From a virus: a DNA stretch of 64,000 nt. Below, piece by piece: positions 3,586 through 36,562 of the stretch. Positions within the stretch are counted from its first letter, which is position 1, and the number at the start of each line of letters is the position of its first letter. The notes beneath the pieces were generated by a model, which saw nothing but the letters and a program-made list of their open reading frames with translations, made no database searches and had not been told where the DNA came from. The translations under genes and the position numbers were made by a program. The stretch spans positions 1-64,000 of IMG/VR virus record IMGVR_UViG_3300030329_006476; one strand, given 5' to 3'.

Positions 3586-4491
3586 TTATATTTCTTGCTT
3601 AGGAAGCCTAGGAGTACTTAAGGTAAAGTCAATAAAGCCTATGCGCATGTTTCTGGGAATGTTCATTGCGGCCCCTGCAGTATCGTAAAGTTTGGAGGAA
3701 GACACCTTTTCCACAAAGGCATAGGGGCCGTTTGCGTTCATTTTCTGAGCATATAATCCGGAGTAGGTATAAGGCGGCGTTTTGAGATGATAATACTCCC
3801 CAAATGGGAAATCCCCAAAATCCACTATAGGCACGCACACTTCAGTAGAATCCCGAAATAAAGACAATGCTCCATCCAAGCTAAAATTGTCGTTTACCAC
3901 AACAACGGCGCGTATATTACTCTTGGTGTCTTGCATGCCTCCCAGCGCAAAAGGCTGGTTGTTGCTGGAATTATAACTCAAGAAGGCAGCGGGAACGGTA
4001 TAATTGGGAGTGCCTAAACCCGTAATGCTTTGGAGGAAAGATTGGTCATCATCGTCACTGAGCAAAAAATCCGTATTAAACAACAACTCTTCTTCGCTTT
4101 CATTGGTGATGTAGCAGTTGATGGTTTTTCTATTGAAGTTTCCGCTTATCGCGAGCGCACTTCCCATTCCCGAATTGAGTATAACGCGCCCCTTGTCAAA
4201 ATCTATCATTAACCCCGTGGTAGTATCGGGGCATTGATTTACAAAACTATATGAGCTTCCAAAGGCGCCACCGCTTATATATACGCCGGAGGGAACCCCC
4301 GTTCCGTTAGCCACCAATTGTCTGTCCGGACTGTAATAGGCAACCTGATTCGTGGGAACGTCCACATTTAAATCTGAATAGTAAAACTGCTGGCTGATGC
4401 CGGACTCGACGGCTTCTCCATATCGAGTCAACCTGTCGTCGAACCACAAATAAAAGCTGCTTAATACCTTATGGTCAAATTGGGGCTTCAT
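3586..4491 (-). CDS. Putative neck or tail-terminator structural protein
   Basis: 301 residues, no family recognised. It is rich in Ser, Asn, Gly and aromatic residues, which is typical of beta-rich virion proteins. Its start overlaps the stop of the 203-residue gene upstream by 4 bases. Position between small connector genes and the tail tube suggests a neck, tail-terminator or sheath-like role; this is inference from gene order. Confidence 0.5.
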   Translation of the reverse strand: MKPQFDHKVLSSFYLWFDDRLTRYGEAVESGISQQFYYSDLNVDVPTNQVAYYSPDRQLVANGTGVPSGVYISGGAFGSSYSFVNQCPDTTTGLMIDFDKGRVILNSGMGSALAISGNFNRKTINCYITNESEEELLFNTDFLLSDDDDQSFLQSITGLGTPNYTVPAAFLSYNSSNNQPFALGGMQDTKSNIRAVVVVNDNFSLDGALSLFRDSTEVCVPIVDFGDFPFGEYYHLKTPPYTYSGLYAQKMNANGPYAFVEKVSSSKLYDTAGAAMNIPRNMRIGFIDFTLSTPRLPKQEI

Positions 4492-5099
4492 AGCCTTTTC
4501 AGCGAGTTTTCCATGCTCTTCAGCATGTTGTTTAATATTTTGGAGATATAGGGAGTGGGCGATGAATTTCCAGCAGCGCGCACCTCCACCTTGGCCTCTA
4601 TACCGCCCCCGGACCTACTGGTTGTAAATCTTCCCTTTCGTGAAGAATATAAATAACGACCCAAACCACTCATCCCCTTTTCTATAGCTTCAGTCCAGCT
4701 TTCCGTTGACCATGGAGAAGGCGTTACCTTGGCAATCTCTTCCTGAGTGGGAACGGTAAACTTTAATATCAACGCCAGCTCTTTCCTTTTTTTTCGTATG
4801 CTGGTGATCTTAATCGACTTAGCCAATAGACTCCTGATTGGAGAAATGGGATCCGACCCTGATTCAAATCCAATAAAAGTAAAAAGATTTCCATACCCCC
4901 CAAGAGTATGAGAGATGTTTCTTGCGCCTTCGCCGCCCTCGATTTCTTTGGTGACTAAATCCGCTTCAAATTCCGTCACCAGCTTTTGGGTTTCCTTGGC
5001 AAAGATTTTTTCTACCCGAGGAGTGACCTTTTCCTTGAACAGCTTGTACCCTTTTTGAGCCAACTCGGCCTTCAGGCCTCTCATGTTTATTTTAGCCAT
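4488..5099 (-). CDS. Putative tail-completion or neck protein
   Basis: 203 residues: a basic N-terminal helix (KINMRGLKAELAQKGYKLFK), a mixed middle, then the Gly/Ser segment SSRKGRFTTSRSGGG. Size, basic charge and position resemble HK97 gp10-like or similar head-tail completion proteins, but no diagnostic motif is visible. It overlaps its neighbours by one to four bases on each side, so it is in the same late operon. Confidence 0.45.
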   Translation of the reverse strand: MAKINMRGLKAELAQKGYKLFKEKVTPRVEKIFAKETQKLVTEFEADLVTKEIEGGEGARNISHTLGGYGNLFTFIGFESGSDPISPIRSLLAKSIKITSIRKKRKELALILKFTVPTQEEIAKVTPSPWSTESWTEAIEKGMSGLGRYLYSSRKGRFTTSRSGGGIEAKVEVRAAGNSSPTPYISKILNNMLKSMENSLKRL

Positions 5100-5545
5100 T
5101 AATCCGCACGCCGCAAATATAAAGTATAAAACTTCACTACGAAAGGCCCTATCTTCGATGCGTCGCTTACAATGCGAAATGCTTCTCCGTCCACTTCTAT
5201 GTTGGAGGCCTTTTTAAAGAGGTTGTAGCCGGTTTCGTCTATCTTTACTCTAACTACCCCTTCACCCAGCGGCACATTAACCTGCGCTCTTGTCCCCGGA
5301 ATATCAATCTCCTTTTGTTCTTGCTGGTAGCGAATTCTAGCTTGAACCGTAGTTTGGGTTACTTTGGTCTTGGTGGTGTTTTCGTTGGCTATCCGCGCAT
5401 AGAGAGCATTATAGGTTCCGTTGGTCGCTACAAATATCTGATTCTCCTTTTGGAAGACCGTAACTGGCCTCGCAAAAGTATCGTGCATATCGTTGAAGAC
5501 ATTCCCGATTGCCGTTTTGTCGGCGCTGGAGATTAAGGAGCCCAT
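5099..5545 (-). CDS. Putative head-tail connector protein
   Basis: 148 residues. It starts MGSLISSADKTAIGNVFNDM and contains the strand pattern DIPGTRAQVNVPLGEGVVRVKI, followed by a C-terminal strand ending LYLRRAD. It has the length and place of a stopper or adaptor protein in the capsid-to-tail gene order. AAGGAG lies 7-12 bases upstream of the ATG on the minus strand, a good ribosome-binding site. Confidence 0.45.
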   Translation of the reverse strand: MGSLISSADKTAIGNVFNDMHDTFARPVTVFQKENQIFVATNGTYNALYARIANENTTKTKVTQTTVQARIRYQQEQKEIDIPGTRAQVNVPLGEGVVRVKIDETGYNLFKKASNIEVDGEAFRIVSDASKIGPFVVKFYTLYLRRAD

Positions 5546-5551
5546 GATTCA

Positions 5552-6049
5552 TTAATAAGGAGGGAAATAAAAAGGATATTGATAATACCCACTGCCCGAA
5601 ATGAATCCCCCGTCATAGCCAGCACTCTGCACCGGGGCCGCTTGATAGGAATTGTAGGAGTATATCAATTTTTCCAAGGCTTCGCCGGCGTCTTTCGCCA
5701 TCAATCTATAAGTACGCGCCGTATCCACTTTATTGGTCCGCACGATAGTGGTATCGCCTTCGGTTAAGCGGGTCCACTCGAGACTGCCTGTGGCGCCCAT
5801 GGAGAGTACCTTGCGGGCCTCTTTCGTGTAATAATCCTTGAGGTAAAGTTGGGTGAGGATGTTTTCCTCTTCCAGCTTGAACTCGCCAGTGGTGGCAAAG
5901 CTGGTATAGGTAAGATTGTTGAACTGACCGAGATTTCCCTCCAGCCAGCCCGATATGGCCTCTATCTTAAACTCTCGTTTAAGCTGAGTGGGTTCGTCGT
6001 CAAATTCGTTATCGTATATATTTGTCGCTATCTGCCCAATTTTAGCCAT
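5552..6049 (-). CDS. Putative head-tail adaptor protein
   Basis: 165 residues: a helical body (EENILTQLYLKDYYTKEARKV; DAGEALEKLIYSYNSYQA) and a Gly/Tyr/Pro-rich tail ending YYQYPFYFPPY. A mostly helical protein directly after the capsid gene and a SAP-like gene fits a portal-ring adaptor, but I recognise no specific family. Confidence 0.45.
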   Translation of the reverse strand: MAKIGQIATNIYDNEFDDEPTQLKREFKIEAISGWLEGNLGQFNNLTYTSFATTGEFKLEEENILTQLYLKDYYTKEARKVLSMGATGSLEWTRLTEGDTTIVRTNKVDTARTYRLMAKDAGEALEKLIYSYNSYQAAPVQSAGYDGGFISGSGYYQYPFYFPPY

Positions 6050-6050
6050 T

Positions 6051-6476
6051 TCATAAGCCTTCGTTTGAAATTCTTAGAATTTCAGCGGCGGCTTCGCTAT
6101 TGGGATCGACGAGAGGTTTTTGATATCCAATGTTATAACCAGCTCCGGCTCCCGCATGAGAGAGGAACTCTTTGGTTATTTTATTCTTTAAACTTAATTT
6201 GTTGCCACTGGGCAGGATTCCTATCCTTACCGCAAAGGCTTGGAGATCCGTAAGGGTCATTTCATTCATTCTCTCTTCGAGAACCGCCTTATTCGTGGTT
6301 CCAAAGGGATTTGTTTGCTGGACCCCTAACAATTCCTCAAGGTCTTTTATTTTCTCAATATCGCTTTTGCCGTCCGCTACCTGCATTGAATCAATCACGC
6401 TTTCCTTCTTTTTTGGAGCAGCGCGCTTCTTCGCAGTCTTTCTGGTGGTTTTCTTCGCTTTTTTTCTGGTTGCCAT
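6051..6476 (-). CDS. Basic protein with Lys-rich N-terminus and SAP/Rho-N-like domain
   Basis: 141 residues. The first ~25 are almost entirely Lys, Arg, Thr and Ala (MATRKKAKKTTRKTAKKRAA). A compact segment near residues 85-115 (LTDLQAFAVRIGI, LSLKNKITKEFL) has the spacing of a SAP or Rho-N helix-extension-helix nucleic-acid-binding fold. It lies between the major capsid gene and the adaptor. It could bind DNA at the portal or be a neck protein with a disordered basic arm. Confidence 0.5.
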   Translation of the reverse strand: MATRKKAKKTTRKTAKKRAAPKKKESVIDSMQVADGKSDIEKIKDLEELLGVQQTNPFGTTNKAVLEERMNEMTLTDLQAFAVRIGILPSGNKLSLKNKITKEFLSHAGAGAGYNIGYQKPLVDPNSEAAAEILRISNEGL

Positions 6477-6540
6477 AATATATTAGATGATTAATGATAT
6501 ATTATATTCCATAATACACAGAATTCAAGTAGTTGAGAAT

Positions 6541-6570
6541 AAAAAACCCGCTCCAAGCGGAGCGGGTTTT
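6541..6570 (-). terminator. Intrinsic terminator after the major capsid gene
   Basis: An 8-bp perfect stem, CCCGCTCC / GGAGCGGG, with an AAGC loop and A/T flanks. It lies 24 bases beyond the minus-strand stop at 6594. A strong terminator here fits very high capsid expression. Confidence 0.85.
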
Positions 6571-6593
6571 CTAAAACTATTTGGACTCTATTA

Positions 6594-7721
6594 TTAATGT
6601 CCGGCAACCACGACGCCCGTAAGCACGCGATTATCGACAACCATGCGGCCTTCTTCGATAGAACCGAACCAACCGAGCTTTTGCTGGCGGTTGCTGTACT
6701 GATCATCAGCGATCAAGCTGAATTCAGCACCGGTTTCCGAATCAGTAGCAACTGCGCGAATAAGAGATTCACGCGAACGGTCGATACCGATTACGAGATC
6801 GTCCATTACGTCAAAGTCAACCTTTCCGGCTACGGTAGAAGCGTCTTGGAAGGCTTGGAACAGCTTGGTGAACTTTCTGGAACGTCCCAATTCGTTCAGT
6901 TCCATAAGGCCGATGCCGTAAAGCTCGGGCACTCCACCATTAGCGAAGACCTTTTCGCGATATCCTTCGGGAGCAGCAACTACCCCAGCGCTTTGACCAC
7001 CAGCAGGGGCTACCCCACCAGCAATGTTCACAGGGTTATAAGACATAGCCCGAAGATCTTCCATGGTTTCAGGAGAAATCAAGAGATCGGTAATACCCTT
7101 GATGGAATCGGTAGGCGTTCCTCCCGTCCATGCGGTATTGATCCGCTTGGCCTTCGTAACCAACTTGTTAAAGTCGGCAAGCGTAAATCCAAGAGTATCG
7201 CTCGCTTGCTCCATTACGTGAGCCTCGCCATTGGTTTCCGCATCAGCCAACGATCCCAAGATCAGGTTGGCGGAAGTGGATTCCTGCTTCAGCAAGATTT
7301 CCTGAGCGACTCTCGTCATCGACTTTCCAACCACATCAAGACGTGATTGAAGAGCATAACGACGATCAAAGCTCACTGCGCTGTCCAGACGATAAGTCGT
7401 GAACTTCAGTTCGCTTGCGGTCGGCAGAACTTGGTTGGTGGGAAGACCACCGGGAACCGTAGTACTGTAAACCTTGATGTAGTCATCGGCGTTAATGTCG
7501 TAATAGAGATCCAGCGGCAGGCTTGGATTGCTATCTGCATTAAATTGAAATGAGCTAAAGAGATTGCTCACGGTCGGGGCCTGATTGATAACTTCCGCAA
7601 GAACGGGGCCCATGAACTCAGCCAAAGCGGCTTGAGCTTCATAAGCTACGCGACGGTCACGGGAAGCCATGGCCTTTACAAGCTCGATTTGCTCGTCGGT
7701 ACGTTTAAGAGTAATATTCAT
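6594..7721 (-). CDS. Major capsid protein
   Basis: 375 residues, acidic and Ala-rich. It starts with a helical arm (MNITLKRTDEQIELVKAMAS), has the long helix RVAQEILLKQESTSANLILG near its middle, and ends with beta segments (GKVDFDVMDDLVIGID). Gene order (terminase, portal, protease, decoration, this, connectors), size, a clear AAAGGA ribosome-binding site and its own strong terminator all point to the HK97-fold major head protein. No fold-level search was possible. Confidence 0.75.
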   Translation of the reverse strand: MNITLKRTDEQIELVKAMASRDRRVAYEAQAALAEFMGPVLAEVINQAPTVSNLFSSFQFNADSNPSLPLDLYYDINADDYIKVYSTTVPGGLPTNQVLPTASELKFTTYRLDSAVSFDRRYALQSRLDVVGKSMTRVAQEILLKQESTSANLILGSLADAETNGEAHVMEQASDTLGFTLADFNKLVTKAKRINTAWTGGTPTDSIKGITDLLISPETMEDLRAMSYNPVNIAGGVAPAGGQSAGVVAAPEGYREKVFANGGVPELYGIGLMELNELGRSRKFTKLFQAFQDASTVAGKVDFDVMDDLVIGIDRSRESLIRAVATDSETGAEFSLIADDQYSNRQQKLGWFGSIEEGRMVVDNRVLTGVVVAGH

Positions 7722-7746
7722 TATTCTATATCCTTTTGGTTAAAGG

Positions 7747-8442
7747 TTAACGGCTACCGCAATCAATGCGAGCTATGAGATAATGACCGGAAGCATTTGC
7801 AGCTCCAGTACCAACGGAAGGTCCAGCGAATTGGTCGCCAGCGACACCGCGATTAACACGGACTCCGGTACCCAAAACTTGACCAACGGTTTGCTGATTG
7901 GCTGGAATATCGTCCAATTGAGCGTAGCCCGTAACTTTACCAGCGTTAGAGCTGACGGTCAGCCAATAGCCGGGAGCGCAAGTTGAAAGAGGTCCATCGA
8001 CCGCATTAGGAAGCGTTCCGCCGCCCGCTGCAAGAGTAATGATACCCTTACCAAGGATGGGAACAGCCTCACCCGAGAGAACCGATTGCGTCTCTAACTT
8101 CTTCTGAGGATAGTAGAGAAGCTTTTCGTTATTCTCGTCGTATTGAGCGGTTTGCAGCAGCGTCACACCGAGACAAGCGTCTCCGGTAGTAGCGGCATTT
8201 ACTTTAAGCGGGACAACAGGATATTGATCGCGTCCAATAAAAGGATAATCCGTCTTACCGAGGTAAGAGTTGGTCTCATATTGAACAGGGTCAAGATTCA
8301 GGTCCCCAGCACTAACCTTTACGAAAACGCCGGCATCTCCTGCGCCACTGTCGGTAACTTGATTGTTAGCGGCAGAGTTGGCAAAGAGATTGACAACGTC
8401 TTCTTCGGCGTACTGACGGAATGGTAGTAGTCTAATAGCCAT
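7747..8442 (-). CDS. Capsid decoration or head-stabilising protein
   Basis: 231 residues, rich in Gly, Ala, Val and Thr, with beta-strand periodicity and motifs such as AVPILGKGIITLAAGGGTLP. It lies between the protease-scaffold gene and the major capsid gene, the usual place for a cementing protein (lambda gpD-like position). Identification is by position and composition. Confidence 0.55.
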   Translation of the reverse strand: MAIRLLPFRQYAEEDVVNLFANSAANNQVTDSGAGDAGVFVKVSAGDLNLDPVQYETNSYLGKTDYPFIGRDQYPVVPLKVNAATTGDACLGVTLLQTAQYDENNEKLLYYPQKKLETQSVLSGEAVPILGKGIITLAAGGGTLPNAVDGPLSTCAPGYWLTVSSNAGKVTGYAQLDDIPANQQTVGQVLGTGVRVNRGVAGDQFAGPSVGTGAANASGHYLIARIDCGSR

Positions 8443-8447
8443 GATTC

Positions 8448-10073
8448 TTAATATTTAACAGTTATGTTTTCTTTTGAAAATGCTTGATTGAACTTTTCGC
8501 GCAGGGTAGGTTCTTCAGCGGCCGCAGCTTCATTATTATTAGTTAGGGCGGCGGAAGCTTCTTCTTCTACGTTTTCCAGTACTTCTTCAAGTACCTCTTC
8601 TACAGCTTCCTGTTCTTCGGCTTCAGCCGTTGAAGCAGTACTTTCTGAAAGAGTGGAAAGGCGCTTGTTCACTTCTTCTTCAAGACGAGCGTTGAAAAGC
8701 TCTTCCTGCTCATTCAAGTAGGCCTTTGTCTTGTGTTGCCACATGACGCTAATGCGCTCTTGATACTGCGTAAACGCTTCGTCGGCAGCCTCGAGCTCCG
8801 AAAGTTCGGAGGCAACGATTCTGAGATCTTCATCATTCAATTCGAAGGCTTCCGTTACGGCAGCCATGCGAGAATTAAATCGATCCTTAGCTTCACGAAG
8901 ACGTTTTTCTTCAGCCAGTTCACCCAATTGTTTTTCAGTAGCTACCAATTTTTCCTTCAGCTCTTCCATTTCACCGGAAAGGGCGTCATGACGTTCCTTG
9001 GCTTCCACTTCGGCATTTTCCTTATCTGCCTTGGCTTGGCGCCACTGTTCGTCTTTTTCCTTGATAGCGTCCATCATTACCTTGGAAACACTGGCAACGG
9101 TCTCTTCGAAATGCTGACTCTCGCCAACTTTTTCCGAAAGAAGACCTTCGATTTGTTTCAATAGATCTTGAGTATCCATAATTAAGGTGTTTGACTTGTT
9201 TACATCATTTTCTCCGGAAAGGGAACTGTTTTTTTTCATTTTTTTATTTTTTGTGTAAAAATCGCGGTTCTGAATTTCAATTTTTTCTTGTGTGACGGCA
9301 TCCTCCTGATCCATCTTTACCTTGATGGGCCTCTCGTTTTCAACCAAGACCCCTTCTACTTCTGCAGCGGGGTTGCTGGTGAATCCTATGCCTAGGGGAT
9401 AAATTTCTCCCACTACCAACCGATGGACCAGAGTTCCGTCATCCATTTTGCCTTCTCCATCATAAGCCTTAAGATATTTACTTAACTCACTAATCTGGTT
9501 TTTATCAGTGACTACTTCAGCTTCACTCAGGTCATCGCTTCCGAGCGCAATATAATAGTCATTAAATCCTATTTCCCAACTCGCCGAAATGATATTATGA
9601 AATTCTTCACCTTCATCGGTATTCTCCAGCATTTTTGCAAAAGCTGGATTTACTACCTTATATACAAGAGCTCCTAATGCAATATTGAAGGGGGCCGTAA
9701 TATCTTGAGCCTCCTCAGGGCTAATAAGCTCACTCGTCTTATGATCGCTAAATGAGGACGATATAATATGTCCGACGACCTTTTCCTTTTGATGCTCGAT
9801 ATTCGTAGGCTTATTTATAAAATAATCCTTTATCTCCAGCGCGGTGGCGGTATCTATGCCGTCACCGTTCTTATTGAACTTATTGACGACAGCCGCATTA
9901 AACGCAACGCCAAGTAAATCGATGTTTTTGCTTAGGTCTACTTCGGGGGGAATGAGCGGACGTAAGTGATCCAAGGAAGCTTCGCTGATTCCAAAACGCT
10001 GACAGGTTCCGTCAACGCAGGAAGCGCTGATTGCACTATGGAAGGCGCTAGTATATAAAAATGGTGTATTCAT
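8448..10073 (-). CDS. Prohead protease fused to scaffolding domain
   Basis: 541 residues in two parts. Residues ~50-230 look like a herpesvirus-type/S78-like maturation protease: PTNIEHQKEKVVGHI contains candidate catalytic His 94 (also His 102), and NIISASWEIGF (about 160-170) contains the candidate nucleophile Ser 163/165. From about residue 298 on, the protein is a long Glu/Lys/Gln coiled coil ending in an acidic Glu/Ala tail, typical of a scaffold cleaved during maturation. An in-frame ATG at 9179 (MDTQDLLKQIEG) marks the start of the scaffold half and could give a separate scaffold, but it has no good Shine-Dalgarno. AGGATG precedes the main ATG. Confidence 0.7.
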   Translation of the reverse strand: MNTPFLYTSAFHSAISASCVDGTCQRFGISEASLDHLRPLIPPEVDLSKNIDLLGVAFNAAVVNKFNKNGDGIDTATALEIKDYFINKPTNIEHQKEKVVGHIISSSFSDHKTSELISPEEAQDITAPFNIALGALVYKVVNPAFAKMLENTDEGEEFHNIISASWEIGFNDYYIALGSDDLSEAEVVTDKNQISELSKYLKAYDGEGKMDDGTLVHRLVVGEIYPLGIGFTSNPAAEVEGVLVENERPIKVKMDQEDAVTQEKIEIQNRDFYTKNKKMKKNSSLSGENDVNKSNTLIMDTQDLLKQIEGLLSEKVGESQHFEETVASVSKVMMDAIKEKDEQWRQAKADKENAEVEAKERHDALSGEMEELKEKLVATEKQLGELAEEKRLREAKDRFNSRMAAVTEAFELNDEDLRIVASELSELEAADEAFTQYQERISVMWQHKTKAYLNEQEELFNARLEEEVNKRLSTLSESTASTAEAEEQEAVEEVLEEVLENVEEEASAALTNNNEAAAAEEPTLREKFNQAFSKENITVKY

Positions 10074-10107: not shown

Positions 10108-11250
10108 TTAATAGCACTCCGGGCAATTCATCGGAGCAGTGACTTTTTTAAGAGACTTTTCGTCTTCTTTCTCGTCCTTTTTTAAATCCTTGATTTGTTT
10201 TTTATCGTCCTTGATGGCGTCTTTCTCGTGCTCTTCTTTTTCCTTTTTGTCGTCGCGCTCGAGTTCGTCTTCATCTTCTTTCTCGTCATCTCCGGCGGTC
10301 TTTACCACCAATTGCTTCTGGTAGTCTAAATTGTTTAAGGGTGGAATTCCTTGAGCCTTCGACTCTTCTTTCTTTTTAGAGTCTTCTTTCTTTTTGGAGT
10401 CCTTGTCATCTGAATCTTTCTCGTCAGAGTCCTTGTCGTCATCATCTTTCTTTTGGAGCCATGGGGGAAGGTTTCCCTTCTTGGCCTTGGCTTTCGACTC
10501 GTTTTTCTTATCTTCCTTAATGTCTTTTTTAAGATCGTGAGTTTCGACACTCTTTTTTTCAGAAGGCTTATCCTTTTTGAGCTTTTCAAGCTTTCCCTCG
10601 TCATCCTTGACGGCATCTTTGTAGTGCTCCTTTTTTTCTTTCTTATCGTCCCGCTTGAGTTCTTTTTCGTCGATCTTCTCCCAATCTTTGGCCGAAGATT
10701 CATCTCTCCATGTTTTAGGCAGGGAGCTTTCGCAGCCCAATTTTTTAGCTCGGGCAGTAAGCTTCCGCTTGAACTCTTCAAAACTCATGGGCCCTTTATA
10801 CATGCCCCATGTACTTACAGCGGCACGAACATTCTTGCAGGAGACCACGGGGAAAGAGCGACGCTTGGGATCTAAAAATGCACTATCCTTCAATTCACTT
10901 CTTTTTTTACCATCATAACGCTCCGCACCCAGAGCTGTATCCTCGTCTACTTCAACACCCAACGCGGCAGCTTTAGCTTTTATAATAAGGTAGGCTTCGG
11001 CCTTGCCCTCTGCAGAAAGAGAGCTTTTTCCTAGCTCCGCCACAGATCTGGTGACAGAAGCTTCGTTATGCAGGGGAAAGCGTCGTAAGGAGTGGGGCAC
11101 CGTTTTACCGTCCACCTTTCTCCCTCCGGGCTCAATATAAGCAAAGGCGGAGTCAGGCAAAGCCGTGACCTCTTTGCGCGTTTTTTGCTCGGCCAACATT
11201 GTTTGCAATTTGTCCGAATCTTGTATTCTTTTAGAGAAGTCGAGTTCCAT
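10108..11250 (-). CDS. Highly charged protein with two DUF6582-like N-terminal modules
   Basis: 380 residues. Residues ~30-100 carry ALPDSAFAYIEPGG... RFPLHNEASV... AEAYLIIKAKAAALGVEV, a module common in phage head-gene clusters (DUF6582-like as I recognise it). A second, shorter copy follows (LKDSAFLDPKRRSFPV ... FKRKLTARAKKLGC). The C-terminal half is almost only Lys, Asp, Glu and Ser and must be disordered. It ends CPECY. Position between portal and protease suggests a head-assembly or internal protein. Confidence 0.55.
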   Translation of the reverse strand: MELDFSKRIQDSDKLQTMLAEQKTRKEVTALPDSAFAYIEPGGRKVDGKTVPHSLRRFPLHNEASVTRSVAELGKSSLSAEGKAEAYLIIKAKAAALGVEVDEDTALGAERYDGKKRSELKDSAFLDPKRRSFPVVSCKNVRAAVSTWGMYKGPMSFEEFKRKLTARAKKLGCESSLPKTWRDESSAKDWEKIDEKELKRDDKKEKKEHYKDAVKDDEGKLEKLKKDKPSEKKSVETHDLKKDIKEDKKNESKAKAKKGNLPPWLQKKDDDDKDSDEKDSDDKDSKKKEDSKKKEESKAQGIPPLNNLDYQKQLVVKTAGDDEKEDEDELERDDKKEKEEHEKDAIKDDKKQIKDLKKDEKEDEKSLKKVTAPMNCPECY

Positions 11251-11295
11251 ATCTTTTTAGGTTAAAAGTCGTTGCTAAAATAATACACTCGTTTT

Positions 11296-13395
11296 TTAGC
11301 TTTGAGAATTTTTTTCTTCGCCTTGGGCATGGTATACCAGCGCCGCCGGATAAATTTCAAGTTGGTGCTCTTCCGATGCCTGCAAAACCTCGGGAAGCGG
11401 ACTCAAGCCCTCAATCAAGGAAAAGTCTTTGACGCAAGCTTCCACTTCCGCCTCCCAATCTTCAGGCATTCTAGCCATGACGACCGACTGGCATAAATCT
11501 TCCAAAAGCTCCTTTTTTTTCTTGGAAAGACGCTTTATGTTGTTGGCGGCCTTCATTTCCTTTTGGGCATGCACCAATAAGTTTTCTGCCTGATAGACCA
11601 CTTCTTGCACTGCCTTGGTGGTCAATTTCATAGTATCACGCTTGTTAGAACCCGTGGGGCGCCCGTGTTGTTGGGGTGTGCGCGGATGGGGGCGCCCCAC
11701 TGTTACCGGACCCGCACCCGGTTCGATATCCTTGTCATCAACTACATCTTGCACGGTAGGGGTTTTGTCTTCAGGCTGATTGGTCTTGGAGGGATAGCCT
11801 TTGTCTCCCTCTTCTCCCATGTCAGGCATTAATGGTTGACCTCCCACTAAAGGAGTATAATAACCTTTTTGCCTTTCATCGATATAAGCTTCTTGCTTTC
11901 GAAGTAGTTCTTCCGTTTCAGGATACAGTCCAGTCTTGATGGTTTGAATACCTTGTTCTGGCGTGAGTATTCCGAGCTCCATGAGCCGAGTTGTAACTCT
12001 TTGTAATTGAACCTCGTCTTTGAGATCAATTTCTTGAAATGTTATGTTGGGGTATTTGCGGAATCCCATATTTTGGCAAACAAGCTTGACTTGCGGCTGA
12101 AGAAAGTCATTGATAAAGGCAGCGCGGGCTTCCTTTAATCGCTCGAGAAATATCTGAGCCTTGACCTGAGTATTGCTATACCGCTCATGCCCTACTACTA
12201 CATTCTGCAGAGCTTCCTTAATGTCTTTGTCGACAATTTCATATTTCTCCGGCCCAAGCACTTTGTTGAGGTCGGGTATCACAAAATCCGCCTTGGTGGT
12301 ATAATCGCTTACTAAAACGCGCCCAATACTTTCATTAGCAAACAAAGATTGCATTGCCTTGAGGTTATTTGGATTGATTCCCCCCTTGTCGGGAGTGTTG
12401 CCCATTGTAATCAACAGAATTACGTTTTCAATAGTTCTCGTGATGGCTTGATCCACCTTTTTCAATTCTAGCTTCCAATTCAGGTCGTCCAAAACGGGAA
12501 ACCCGAAAGGAATGGCAAAAGGTTCGTAATCTTGCTTTTTATAAAAAGAAAAGCTAAGCTTGACAGGATCGAGCTCCATGGATATTCCGTCATATCCATA
12601 TCCCCCATCCTTGATGAGTTGCTGCGTCTTTTTAGGGAGCCCCTCAAGGACTTCCTTATCATAAGGCGTCTTGGGCTCTTGGAGCCTCTCCAACTCAAAT
12701 TCAGAAAGTATCTTTCTATATACCTGCCCATGAAAATTGGTAGAGCGTACGGTAGCTATGTCATAAGGATTGAGAACGATATATTTGATCGGCAACTCCC
12801 CCGGGCGCAAAAACTTGGATCCGTAAATAGTGGAAAGCTTGGCAAAGTCTTCATCGGTAAACTTACTGTCAATCCTATATAAAAATACGTTACCGCTTCT
12901 GTAGTATTCTCTAAAAAATTGATCCTTGAGGTTCCATATTTTTATTTTTTGAAACCACTTGTCTATAAACGTCCTAGCCTTTTCAGTCCCCCCTTCTATA
13001 TAAAGTTCGGTATTGGCAAATTCGGACATGATGTCTATCACGTTCCGGAAAATGGGAATGTTCGCATAGGCCTTTTGGCATAAAAGTATACAATCCCTGA
13101 CATCTGCCCCCAGCTTTGTATAATAATACGGAAGCATACCCTCCCGGATATTAGAATACTTGAAAAGCTTGGGACCTATAGGGGCTCTATTGAGGCGGGT
13201 TTGAGTACGAGCGACGTCCGATCCCGGCCCATTTCTTTCGTAAGCTTTAGCTGTTTGGGTATAATATGAATCCCCCGCTAAAATGGGATTCCACGGAGGA
13301 TCTTCTCCTGCAATTTGTTGAGTAAGATCGTTTAGATCTTTGGGCTCAAACTGCTCCCAATACGAAGATCTTTTTGTATATTTTCGTTTTGCCAT
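11296..13395 (-). CDS. Portal protein
   Basis: 699 residues, directly after the large terminase. It has an N-terminal alpha/beta part, a central helical stem region (LELKKVDQAITRTIENVIL; KNVVVGHERYSNTQVKAQIF-like segment) and a Gly/Pro/Arg-rich C-terminal section, as in large portal proteins. A TAGACT-17 bp-TATAAT promoter-like sequence ends only 5 bases before the ATG on the minus strand, so this gene may also have a near-leaderless transcript. Confidence 0.75.
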   Translation of the reverse strand: MAKRKYTKRSSYWEQFEPKDLNDLTQQIAGEDPPWNPILAGDSYYTQTAKAYERNGPGSDVARTQTRLNRAPIGPKLFKYSNIREGMLPYYYTKLGADVRDCILLCQKAYANIPIFRNVIDIMSEFANTELYIEGGTEKARTFIDKWFQKIKIWNLKDQFFREYYRSGNVFLYRIDSKFTDEDFAKLSTIYGSKFLRPGELPIKYIVLNPYDIATVRSTNFHGQVYRKILSEFELERLQEPKTPYDKEVLEGLPKKTQQLIKDGGYGYDGISMELDPVKLSFSFYKKQDYEPFAIPFGFPVLDDLNWKLELKKVDQAITRTIENVILLITMGNTPDKGGINPNNLKAMQSLFANESIGRVLVSDYTTKADFVIPDLNKVLGPEKYEIVDKDIKEALQNVVVGHERYSNTQVKAQIFLERLKEARAAFINDFLQPQVKLVCQNMGFRKYPNITFQEIDLKDEVQLQRVTTRLMELGILTPEQGIQTIKTGLYPETEELLRKQEAYIDERQKGYYTPLVGGQPLMPDMGEEGDKGYPSKTNQPEDKTPTVQDVVDDKDIEPGAGPVTVGRPHPRTPQQHGRPTGSNKRDTMKLTTKAVQEVVYQAENLLVHAQKEMKAANNIKRLSKKKKELLEDLCQSVVMARMPEDWEAEVEACVKDFSLIEGLSPLPEVLQASEEHQLEIYPAALVYHAQGEEKNSQS

Positions 13396-30297: not shown

Positions 30298-30494
30298 AAA
30301 TAAAGTGAATGAGAGTCGAGCCGCCACACTCGATAAAGCTTTCAAGGGTTGACCTACTAGGCGTTGTACTGCCTCTCAAAATTGTGTCTCGTGCTGTGCC
30401 ACATGACTGCACCCAGATTTGTGAAGGTTGCGATCCTCCTGTCTTGAGGGGTTTATGTCTCAAGTCTGACACGAGACTGAAATGTTAAAGAACT
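30298..30494 (-). ncRNA. Candidate structured RNA with cassette promoter
   Basis: A GC-richer island without a credible gene. Reading the minus strand, GTCTCGTG near the 5' end pairs perfectly with CACGAGAC about 90 bases later, enclosing CTTGAG/CTCAAG. A second domain has TCGAG/CTCGA inside GAGAG/CTCTC. It is followed by a T-rich stretch, and it is headed by a TTGCAA-17-TATTGT promoter. No tRNA or known RNA family recognised. Exact ends are estimates. Confidence 0.5.
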
Positions 30495-30500
30495 ATAAAT

Positions 30501-30529
30501 ACAATAACCCCGAAACCTAATAATTGCAA
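30501..30529 (-). promoter_or_regulatory. Promoter of the candidate RNA
   Basis: TTGCAA, 17 bp, TATTGT, with a predicted start near 30494. Same -35 class and spacing as the gene cassettes, but no start codon follows. Confidence 0.6.
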
Positions 30530-34638: not shown

Positions 34639-34722
34639 TTCTAACCCCTTGGTATTCAAGGACTTGCGCGGGCGGGGAGGCACCCTTGGGCCCCTAAACC
34701 CTTTACGGTCAAACACTTAGGA
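34639..34722. repeat. Cassette repeat, copy 11
   Basis: Arms CTAACCCCTTGGTATTCAAGG and TAAACCCTTTACGGTCAAACAC around the core CGGGCGGGGAGGCACCCTTGG. The stop codon of the gene at 34717 lies in the outer arm. Confidence 0.75.
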
Positions 34723-35136
34723 CGCTGACGCCCTAACCTCTTGGGGGTGCAGCTGAACGAATGAAGCGAACCACCGAGGCTTTTCCGTTCGTTGGTCTAC
34801 GAACGATTCGTACTTGTAGGGATTATAAGTGACTGGCGTCATTTCCCACCAACCCAAGTCATCCCAACAAGCAAACTCAGGTTCAGGATGGGATAAAAAC
34901 CCTCGCACCCCTGCATGAACATTCTTTCTTTGTTCTCGCAGGACTTTTTCTCTACCCTTGCGGTTTACCTTAAAGGCACATGAGTACAAGCGTATCACAT
35001 CATTTTTCTCGGTATGAGCCTTAACTAATCCATCTTGTTTTATCGACCAGCAATTCTTGTGAAGGTTCTTGTAAACAAATACCTTTCTGCTTTCGTCAAT
35101 TTTGTACCGTGGGTCTTCTTGCTTTAATTTAATCAT
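34717..35136 (-). CDS. Unknown protein
   Basis: 139 residues, basic in its first half (MIKLKQEDPRYKIDESRKVF; VNRKGREKVLREQRKNVHAG). It starts by TAATG overlap with the gene upstream and its stop lies in repeat copy 11. Confidence 0.5.
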   Translation of the reverse strand: MIKLKQEDPRYKIDESRKVFVYKNLHKNCWSIKQDGLVKAHTEKNDVIRLYSCAFKVNRKGREKVLREQRKNVHAGVRGFLSHPEPEFACWDDLGWWEMTPVTYNPYKYESFVDQRTEKPRWFASFVQLHPQEVRASAS

Positions 35137-35387
35137 TACTTTACTCCGAATACTTCTTTTAACTTTTGGAAGCTTGAAGATTTAATAAAAACTTCTCTGC
35201 AGTAGTCTCCATGCAATCTCTCAACTGCCTCGATGCGATGAGCAACTCGGGACGCAGGACAGGCTTCTCTTGGAAGATAACCCCATTTAATAATCAATGT
35301 AGTATCGGGGAAATAGCAAGCAAGCTCTTGGCATTGCTCGGCATCCACATTACCCCATTGGGCGACAATCTCTTTTAGTAGTTTCAT
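35136..35387 (-). CDS. Small unknown protein
   Basis: 83 residues (MKLLKEIVAQWGNVDAEQCQ ... LPREACPASRVAHRIEAVER). Helical. It has a near-leaderless promoter and is the rightmost gene of the cassette array. Confidence 0.5.
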   Translation of the reverse strand: MKLLKEIVAQWGNVDAEQCQELACYFPDTTLIIKWGYLPREACPASRVAHRIEAVERLHGDYCREVFIKSSSFQKLKEVFGVK

Positions 35388-35606: not shown

Positions 35607-35735
35607 TTATTCTGGTTTTATTAGATTTTGTACTATCATTCCTCCTAGGGCAATCATAATAAGTGGTAAGTAAATTGCTATATTGGTTGGATTAATAAAA
35701 GATATAAAAAGTAATAAACCTAAAGTTTCTGTCAT
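35607..35735 (-). CDS. Small membrane protein
   Basis: 42 residues with two hydrophobic stretches (TLGLLLFISFINPTNIAIYL; IMIALGGMIVQN). It has its own TTGACA-17-TAGCAT promoter and a C/A-rich leader (ACTAACCAACACAACAATACC) without Shine-Dalgarno. Confidence 0.5.
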   Translation of the reverse strand: MTETLGLLLFISFINPTNIAIYLPLIMIALGGMIVQNLIKPE

Positions 35736-35785: not shown

Positions 35786-35814
35786 ATGCTAGCACATACT
35801 GGGTGAGTTGTCAA
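35786..35814 (-). promoter_or_regulatory. Promoter of the 42-residue membrane protein
   Basis: TTGACA, 17 bp, TAGCAT. It lies immediately after the terminator of the candidate RNA. The leader is about 45 bases. Confidence 0.6.
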
Positions 35815-35816
35815 AT

Positions 35817-35861
35817 AAAAACCCCCCTCCCAACCGCAGGGAGGTCGGAAAGGGGGTACCC
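35817..35861 (-). terminator. Intrinsic terminator of the candidate RNA
   Basis: On the minus strand ACCTCCC and GGGAGG form the stem around TGCGGTT, followed by G-run and then TTTTTATTT. Confidence 0.8.
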
Positions 35862-36239
35862 ACGAAAAAATAGATGTGGGGAAGGATTACTGTATACCTT
35901 CAACTTTTCGGCGTGAACATCAGTTCATAGATTACCTACTTCGAACCACAGATCAGACATGGTATTAGTCTTATGCTCATCCGATTGGACTCCGCACCCC
36001 CACCACAGGGGATCTGCATACCTTAGCCCGCTCACGACAGGCTTGTTCGGTCACCCACAGGACGCCTCCGTCGAGACATCCAAAATACAACTCAAGACAG
36101 GCTGGGCAGATTACCCGTGAGAACCAGTGAGGCCTGTCCTGAGCTTAAAAAGAAAATGTAAAAGAACGTGGGGCTATTTTTTCGAGTCGCCCCTTCTCGA
36201 TCAGATTATTACGTATATACCTCACCTGAAGGCAAAGTA
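35818..36239 (-). ncRNA. Candidate ~420-nt structured RNA
   Basis: Bounded by a near-consensus promoter (36246-36274) and an intrinsic terminator (35817-35861), with no credible reading frame. It stands out as GC-rich in an AT-rich region. On the minus strand there are many self-complementary segments: GGGGC/GCCCC near the 5' end, CCCAC/GTGGG near the 3' end, and three GACAGGC/GCCTGTC boxes spaced 35-60 bases apart, one in inverted orientation. It does not look like a tRNA, tmRNA or RNase P RNA by eye. Confidence 0.6.
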
Positions 36240-36245
36240 TACTTT

Positions 36246-36274
36246 ATAATAACATATTCAATTCAATTTGTCAA
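36246..36274 (-). promoter_or_regulatory. Promoter of the candidate RNA
   Basis: TTGACA, 17 bp, TATTAT: the closest match to the general sigma-70 consensus in the window. The predicted start is near 36239. Confidence 0.75.
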
Positions 36275-36312
36275 GTGGTTTTTAAAATATTGTGGATTTT
36301 TTGTTAACCCCT

Positions 36313-36562
36313 ACTTTTCAGCAAAGAAAACCCACATAAAAAACTTTCTGTCGTATCGGTAAGTAGGCAACCGTTATGATATATAGATCGATGAGCTTTT
36401 TGTCGCAACCAACTTTTCAGAAAAGAAAGCTCACCTAAAAACTCTCTGTCGCATCGGTAGGTTGGGAACCAAAGTTTAATGAATAGATCGGCAAGCTTTT
36501 TGAGGTGTCTCTCGGTTACAGCAAAGAAAACTCGCCTAAAAAACTTTCTGTTATAATTGTTG
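36313..36562. repeat. Three imperfect tandem repeats, period 99 and 111 bp
   Basis: Each unit contains CAG(C/A)AAAGAAA, then TAAAAAACTTTCTGT. Units 1 and 2 also share TCG(T/C)ATCGGTA, AACC and AGATCG...AGCTTTTTG. Anchors are at 36319, 36418 and 36529. No gene lies between 36275 and 36706; nothing else is recognised there. Confidence 0.75.

Follow-up and report, generated by a model that had tools for sequence, protein, structure and literature searches.

The manA RNA was first described as a probable riboswitch from marine metagenomes, two gamma-proteobacteria and cyanophages, situated possibly in the 5' UTRs of varied genes (PMC2864571), and its Rfam alignment was corrected later (PMC7779021). 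Our literature search on manA RNA found no experimental work, ligand or functional test. A second relevant system is the leader of rRNA operons, where NusB and S10 bind to boxA (PMC4807359). The E. coli rrnB leader, which we read directly, is composed of TTGACT-17-TATTAT, a hairpin and GCTCTTTAACAATTTA. Use of boxA extends to other untranslated RNAs: in Legionella, an 11-bp boxA, GTTCTTTAAAA, stands before an untranslated CRISPR array and raises expression about tenfold (PMC7862264).

The locus considered here lies in a window of 64,000 nt, the whole stretch of DNA that was analysed, which belongs to a virus record of 103,799 bases. Positions 36274-35821 (-) are predicted to form a structured non-coding transcription unit of about 425 nt. 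We consider it likely that the locus is a stand-alone structured-RNA gene of the manA family, carried by a marine phage, headed by an rRNA-style leader and acting in trans. A previous sequence-only reading had proposed a stand-alone structured noncoding RNA of ~420 nt with its own promoter and terminator. That proposal is well supported and right about the size, the unit lying on the minus strand; its further statement that the RNA could not be matched no longer holds. The Rfam search it had suggested returned one family, manA (RF01745), at 35871-36081 (-), with a covariance-model score of 86.6 bits (E 1e-20; gathering cut-off 55.2 bits) and a match spanning model positions 1-192 of 192. manA is the sole Rfam family at threshold in the 64-kb window. 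GOLLD and ROOL, which are likewise large structured phage RNAs, differ in having no match in the window at the Rfam gathering threshold.

The expectation of a structured body without a credible gene was borne out as well. The minus strand of the locus folds better than its shuffles (z -3.96, 0/100 as good), and the plus strand folds no better than shuffles (z -0.99, 18/100 as good). The cores of relatives have no common reading frame: stops interrupt all three forward frames in each of the 42 manA cores tested, and 13 cores have one open reverse frame, but it is not the same frame throughout. The "repeated GACAGGC boxes", on the other hand, are not a repeat family. Two copies pair with each other as the two sides of a single 14-bp hairpin (36145-36089), a third forms one side of a manA helix, and another falls within an 83-aa gene.

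Relatives of the unit were collected by pattern scans of IMG/VR, which gave 62, 40 and 40 loci, and by a manA profile, which matched 83 sequences, the window included. The family was reachable only via a covariance model, a profile or short patterns; one of these, the 15-mer GGTATACAGTAATCC, also matches unrelated sequence in about a third of contigs. Searching phage genomes with blastn gave chance-level matches only for the region itself and none for a window-type relative used as query. The profile matches fall into two types, the cyanophage type and that of the window. About 60 related viral loci, 46 of them distinct, have the same anatomy as the window, in a conserved order: a TTGACA-17-TATAAT promoter, a small H-type pseudoknot, boxA, a module of 0-211 nt, manA, a terminator and a new promoter. 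Comparison of sequences shows family membership, anatomy, conservation and covariation. The covariation analysis, which the sequence-only reading had also proposed, revealed compensatory change in the manA helices: when 31 window-type cores were aligned to the named structure, 92.1% of cells were paired and 26 pairs had changed on both sides, with a covariation of 0.311 (0.152 shuffled, at most 0.119 slid). The window's RNA shares with RF01745 the full-model match, the conserved GGUAUACAGUAAUCC loop, the closing GUGGG/CCCAC helix and the covarying stems. It belongs, however, to a divergent subgroup that scores ~62-93 bits, compared with ~158-187 for cyanophage members, and it is built as a stand-alone unit with a boxA leader and a terminator, not as the evident 5' UTR of a metabolic gene. 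The descriptive label of RF01745 (5' UTR, cis-regulatory), which is an annotation and not a homology criterion, does not describe the arrangement in the window or in most relatives of its clade. A candidate loop-loop contact inside manA (CUG/CAG, or CUA/UAG in L071, L110 and L111) partly overlaps a stem.

How is the unit headed? The TTGACA-17-TATTAT promoter named by the sequence-only reading is present at 36274-36246 (-), has a TG before the -10 element and predicts a start at ~36240. Of 56 loci whose 5' core is intact, 52 have a TTGACA/TATAAT promoter with boxA behind it. The remaining four comprise two that are truncated where the retrieved DNA begins, one whose boxA is a variant and one whose promoter is weak. 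A 5'-terminal 12-bp hairpin (36215-36242, -) occurs only in the window's phage, where it stretches the spacing from -10 to boxA to 78 nt. Behind it, TCGAG/CTCGA and GGGGC/GCCCC are predicted to form an H-type pseudoknot (36170-36200, -). Most leaders contain a 5-bp hairpin (TTGAG/CTCAA) between promoter and boxA. In the 17 that have a loop other than a plain A-rich one, loop bases can pair with the linker upstream of boxA (GGGGC/GCCCC, GAGGC/GCCUC, GGAU/AUCC, GGGU/ACCC, AAGCU/AGCUU and others). When partners were swapped among relatives, pairing dropped from the observed 11.6 to 8.66 +/- 0.53, and 0 of 1500 swaps reached the observed value. The case for the pseudoknot is built on this test because the MAFFT alignment loses the register of the second helix.

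An rRNA-type boxA, GTTCTTTTACA, followed by TTTT, comes next (36153-36167, -), so that promoter, hairpin and boxA stand in the order of an rRNA-type antitermination leader. Among relatives the consensus is GWTCTTTWAYA followed by TTT. The boxA 14-mer occurs in 42 of 42 distinct leaders (0.08 expected), a count that measures rarity and is not independent, because the inner 11-mer helped to locate the leaders. The likeness to E. coli rrnB lies in this order, in similar spacing and in the untranslated structured RNA downstream; the phage units differ in that the hairpin is often an H-type pseudoknot, the cargo is a phage RNA and the dependence on Nus factors is predicted. The L106 leader contains the exact 11-mer GTTCTTTAAAA of the boxA-led CRISPR arrays of L. 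pneumophila Lens, which likewise place boxA upstream of a long untranslated RNA (PMC7862264), although the phage units lack a repeat-spacer array and make another product. Judging from these resemblances, we infer that the phage boxA may recruit Nus factors.

Just upstream of the manA promoter, at 36298-36560, we noticed three direct repeats of ~100 nt, whose ends differ yet match one another (CCUACUU/AAGUAGG, CCAAC/GUUGG, UCUCUC/GAGAGA). On either strand the repeats fold no better than shuffles, and a search with the repeat pattern found only three viral contigs, none of which looks related. As to the host, a scan of genome contigs led to two uncultivated bins (Rickettsiales and Neomarinimicrobiota) that are no evidence of host, and the relatives of the terminase and of RIIA are too distant to name one.

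What separates the RNA from its neighbours bears directly on the cis-regulatory interpretation, in which manA would be a riboswitch or attenuator that, on sensing a ligand, acts on the terminator behind it and thereby controls the downstream genes. The intrinsic terminator claimed by the sequence-only reading is a 15-pair structure at 35857-35821 (-), about 13 nt past the core, a proximity that fits such control, as does the family's description as a probable cis-regulatory riboswitch (PMC2864571). The relatives confirm the terminator: 37 of 46 distinct loci have one of -14 kcal/mol or lower no more than 220 nt behind manA, compared with 4 of 103 control positions. The distance from core to terminator, however, varies widely and includes inserted stretches; in some relatives this gap holds additional conserved stretches that look structured. 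Moreover, a new promoter follows the terminator in 33 of 46 loci, its -10 element commonly just 6-7 nt from the ATG that starts an 84-aa protein (for example in L016, L021, L028 and L043), which suggests leaderless mRNAs. In the window, a separate promoter for the downstream genes, TTGACA-17-TAGCAT, was located by scan and by comparison with relatives at 35786-35814 (-). Terminator and new promoter together would set the RNA apart from the next gene.

The genes beyond offer something to either view. The first ORF after the unit encodes 42 hydrophobic residues (35607-35735, -) and has no Pfam match. It is followed by an 83-aa ORF (35136-35387, -) without a Pfam or PHROG match; in relatives, the homologues of this ORF (~84 aa) usually come first behind the terminator. 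The conservation of this 84-aa gene favours control in cis, and its usual place behind the unit could be read as a regulatory link. Adjoining the 83-aa gene, at 34717-35136 (-), is a homologue of mycobacteriophage L5 gp82 (PF25735, E 7e-31; phrog_586) with no assigned function. Cis-like placements are also found: manA stands directly before a rubrerythrin gene in Pelagibacter phage Mosig EXVC030M (64.0 bits), directly before purL in Prochlorococcus phage P-SSM2 and just before the ssDNA-binding protein gene gp32 in Prochlorococcus phage P-HM2, and in L026, L064 and L093 an ORF begins 16-26 nt past manA with no terminator between them. All six count against the stand-alone reading. Yet the genes that follow manA are unrelated across phages (ssDNA-binding protein, purL, rubrerythrin, 84-aa protein), and manA is also found behind a tmRNA: in one viral contig, L130, a permuted tmRNA (126-608) is succeeded after 54 nt by manA (662-870), both on one strand. 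Another viral contig, L034, has an array of 28 tRNAs (3828-9787) with a manA-like RNA between two of them; that this match, at 29.2 bits, is under the family cut-off again counts against the stand-alone reading. Across the whole manA family, tandem-ncRNA and cis-like placements both exist. For the window's clade, the conserved anatomy with its rrnB-like leader order argues against the Rfam label "cis-regulatory", and we regard a riboswitch as unlikely there; for other members of the family the riboswitch view is possible. Two further observations concern tmRNAs. L118 has a sequence similar to the tmRNA-manA arrangement of L130 that is cut by the contig end, and in viral contig L026 ARAGORN calls a tmRNA at 10941-11374 (-) with an unusually long, basic tag peptide.

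Alternatively, the unit might be mainly a carrier: the exchangeable modules would be the active small RNAs, and manA, as a stable 3' domain, would protect them or aid their processing. In the window, the gap between boxA and manA is occupied by a stem-closed module with a 14-bp closing stem (36089-36145, -; fold z -3.57). The inserts at this position range from 0 to 211 nt and are closed by helices; they vary greatly between relatives while the leader and manA stay, a pattern that speaks for a carrier. The closing helices are real: 20 modules score 18.5, compared with 12.25 +/- 0.68 when ends are swapped, and 0 of 1000 swaps reach the observed value. One module family is, in addition, present without manA in a second boxA unit of the window. 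Nevertheless, a module of at least 30 nt is missing from about half of the relatives, and manA contains highly conserved unpaired positions, which suggest a role of its own. That the unit is mainly a carrier is improbable, more so than a riboswitch.

The second boxA-led unit (30308-30529, -) lacks manA and begins with a weaker promoter-like sequence, TTGCAA-17-TATTGT. Its boxA (30479-30493, -) precedes two stem-closed modules, the first at 30386-30477 (-) and the second at 30308-30377 (-). The latter is a copy of what we call the CAGUAYAA motif, which occurs at 33 viral loci. It is characterised by the sequence CAGUAYAA close to the 5' end, by pairing of a hairpin-loop GGCN with an upstream NGCC and, usually, by a hairpin with the loop GGUAAGA; this last hairpin is absent from the window's copy, which is short. 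Among 14 distinct sequences, 94.8% of the cells are paired, and 17 of 22 pairs have changes on both sides. The covariation of 0.670 (0.167 shuffled, at most 0.145 slid) is strong even though the slid control somewhat favours the structure, because the structure was named by eye from the same sequences. No Rfam family of its own was found at the gathering threshold for the sites of this motif. L028 carries the motif between boxA and manA, and L118, L130 and L166 carry it within the intervening segment of their permuted tmRNAs. A tRNA-like element stands next to the motif in L082, L103 and L116, directly after boxA or a module (L103 ~6550-6680, L082 ~11905-12010, L116 on the minus strand); this element has an acceptor stem, a GUUCGAAUC T-arm and a long, odd middle part and is not called by ARAGORN.

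Could the unit be a chance assembly of promoter and terminator look-alikes in AT-rich intergenic DNA around a degenerate manA relic? Simple scans of the region find 6 promoters (6.0 in shuffles) and 3 terminators (3.1), so that such elements alone prove nothing and the case rests on the relatives; but all elements are conserved in order across tens of these, with compensatory changes, and the comparative data contradict an assembly by chance, which we consider highly improbable. It is this conservation that makes the promoter and terminator of the window credible.

How, then, might a stand-alone manA gene work? We envision a scenario whereby host RNA polymerase starts at the strong sigma70-type promoter and the rRNA-type pseudoknot and boxA leader recruits host Nus factors, so that a long, untranslated and structured transcript could be completed without premature termination by Rho. 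This transcript would carry an exchangeable stem-closed module and then the manA core, and would end at the intrinsic terminator, apart from the next gene with its own promoter. The manA RNA would then act in trans, most plausibly in the setting of translation or RNA metabolism in which its relatives are found; both the mode of action and this functional area are suggested by relatives that adjoin tmRNA and tRNAs.

The manA family was already known; here it is probably built as a gene of its own and not as the gene-control switch of its label. The label of cis-regulatory riboswitch candidate dates from 2010. A large clade of separately promoted, boxA-led and terminated manA RNAs would explain the absence of one constant metabolic gene, and it redirects the search for manA function to a trans-acting role. 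The clade also provides an example, in phages, of rRNA-style leaders heading non-coding cargo other than rRNA, and the CAGUAYAA motif adds a further structured RNA with strong covariation. More tentatively, and at somewhat less than even chances, marine phages may carry boxA-led ncRNA operons built like rRNA operons, whose trans-acting cargo would be stable structured RNAs: manA, permuted tmRNA, elements resembling tRNA, and exchangeable modules of which the CAGUAYAA motif is one. In these operons manA would act in trans in translation or RNA metabolism and not as a riboswitch.
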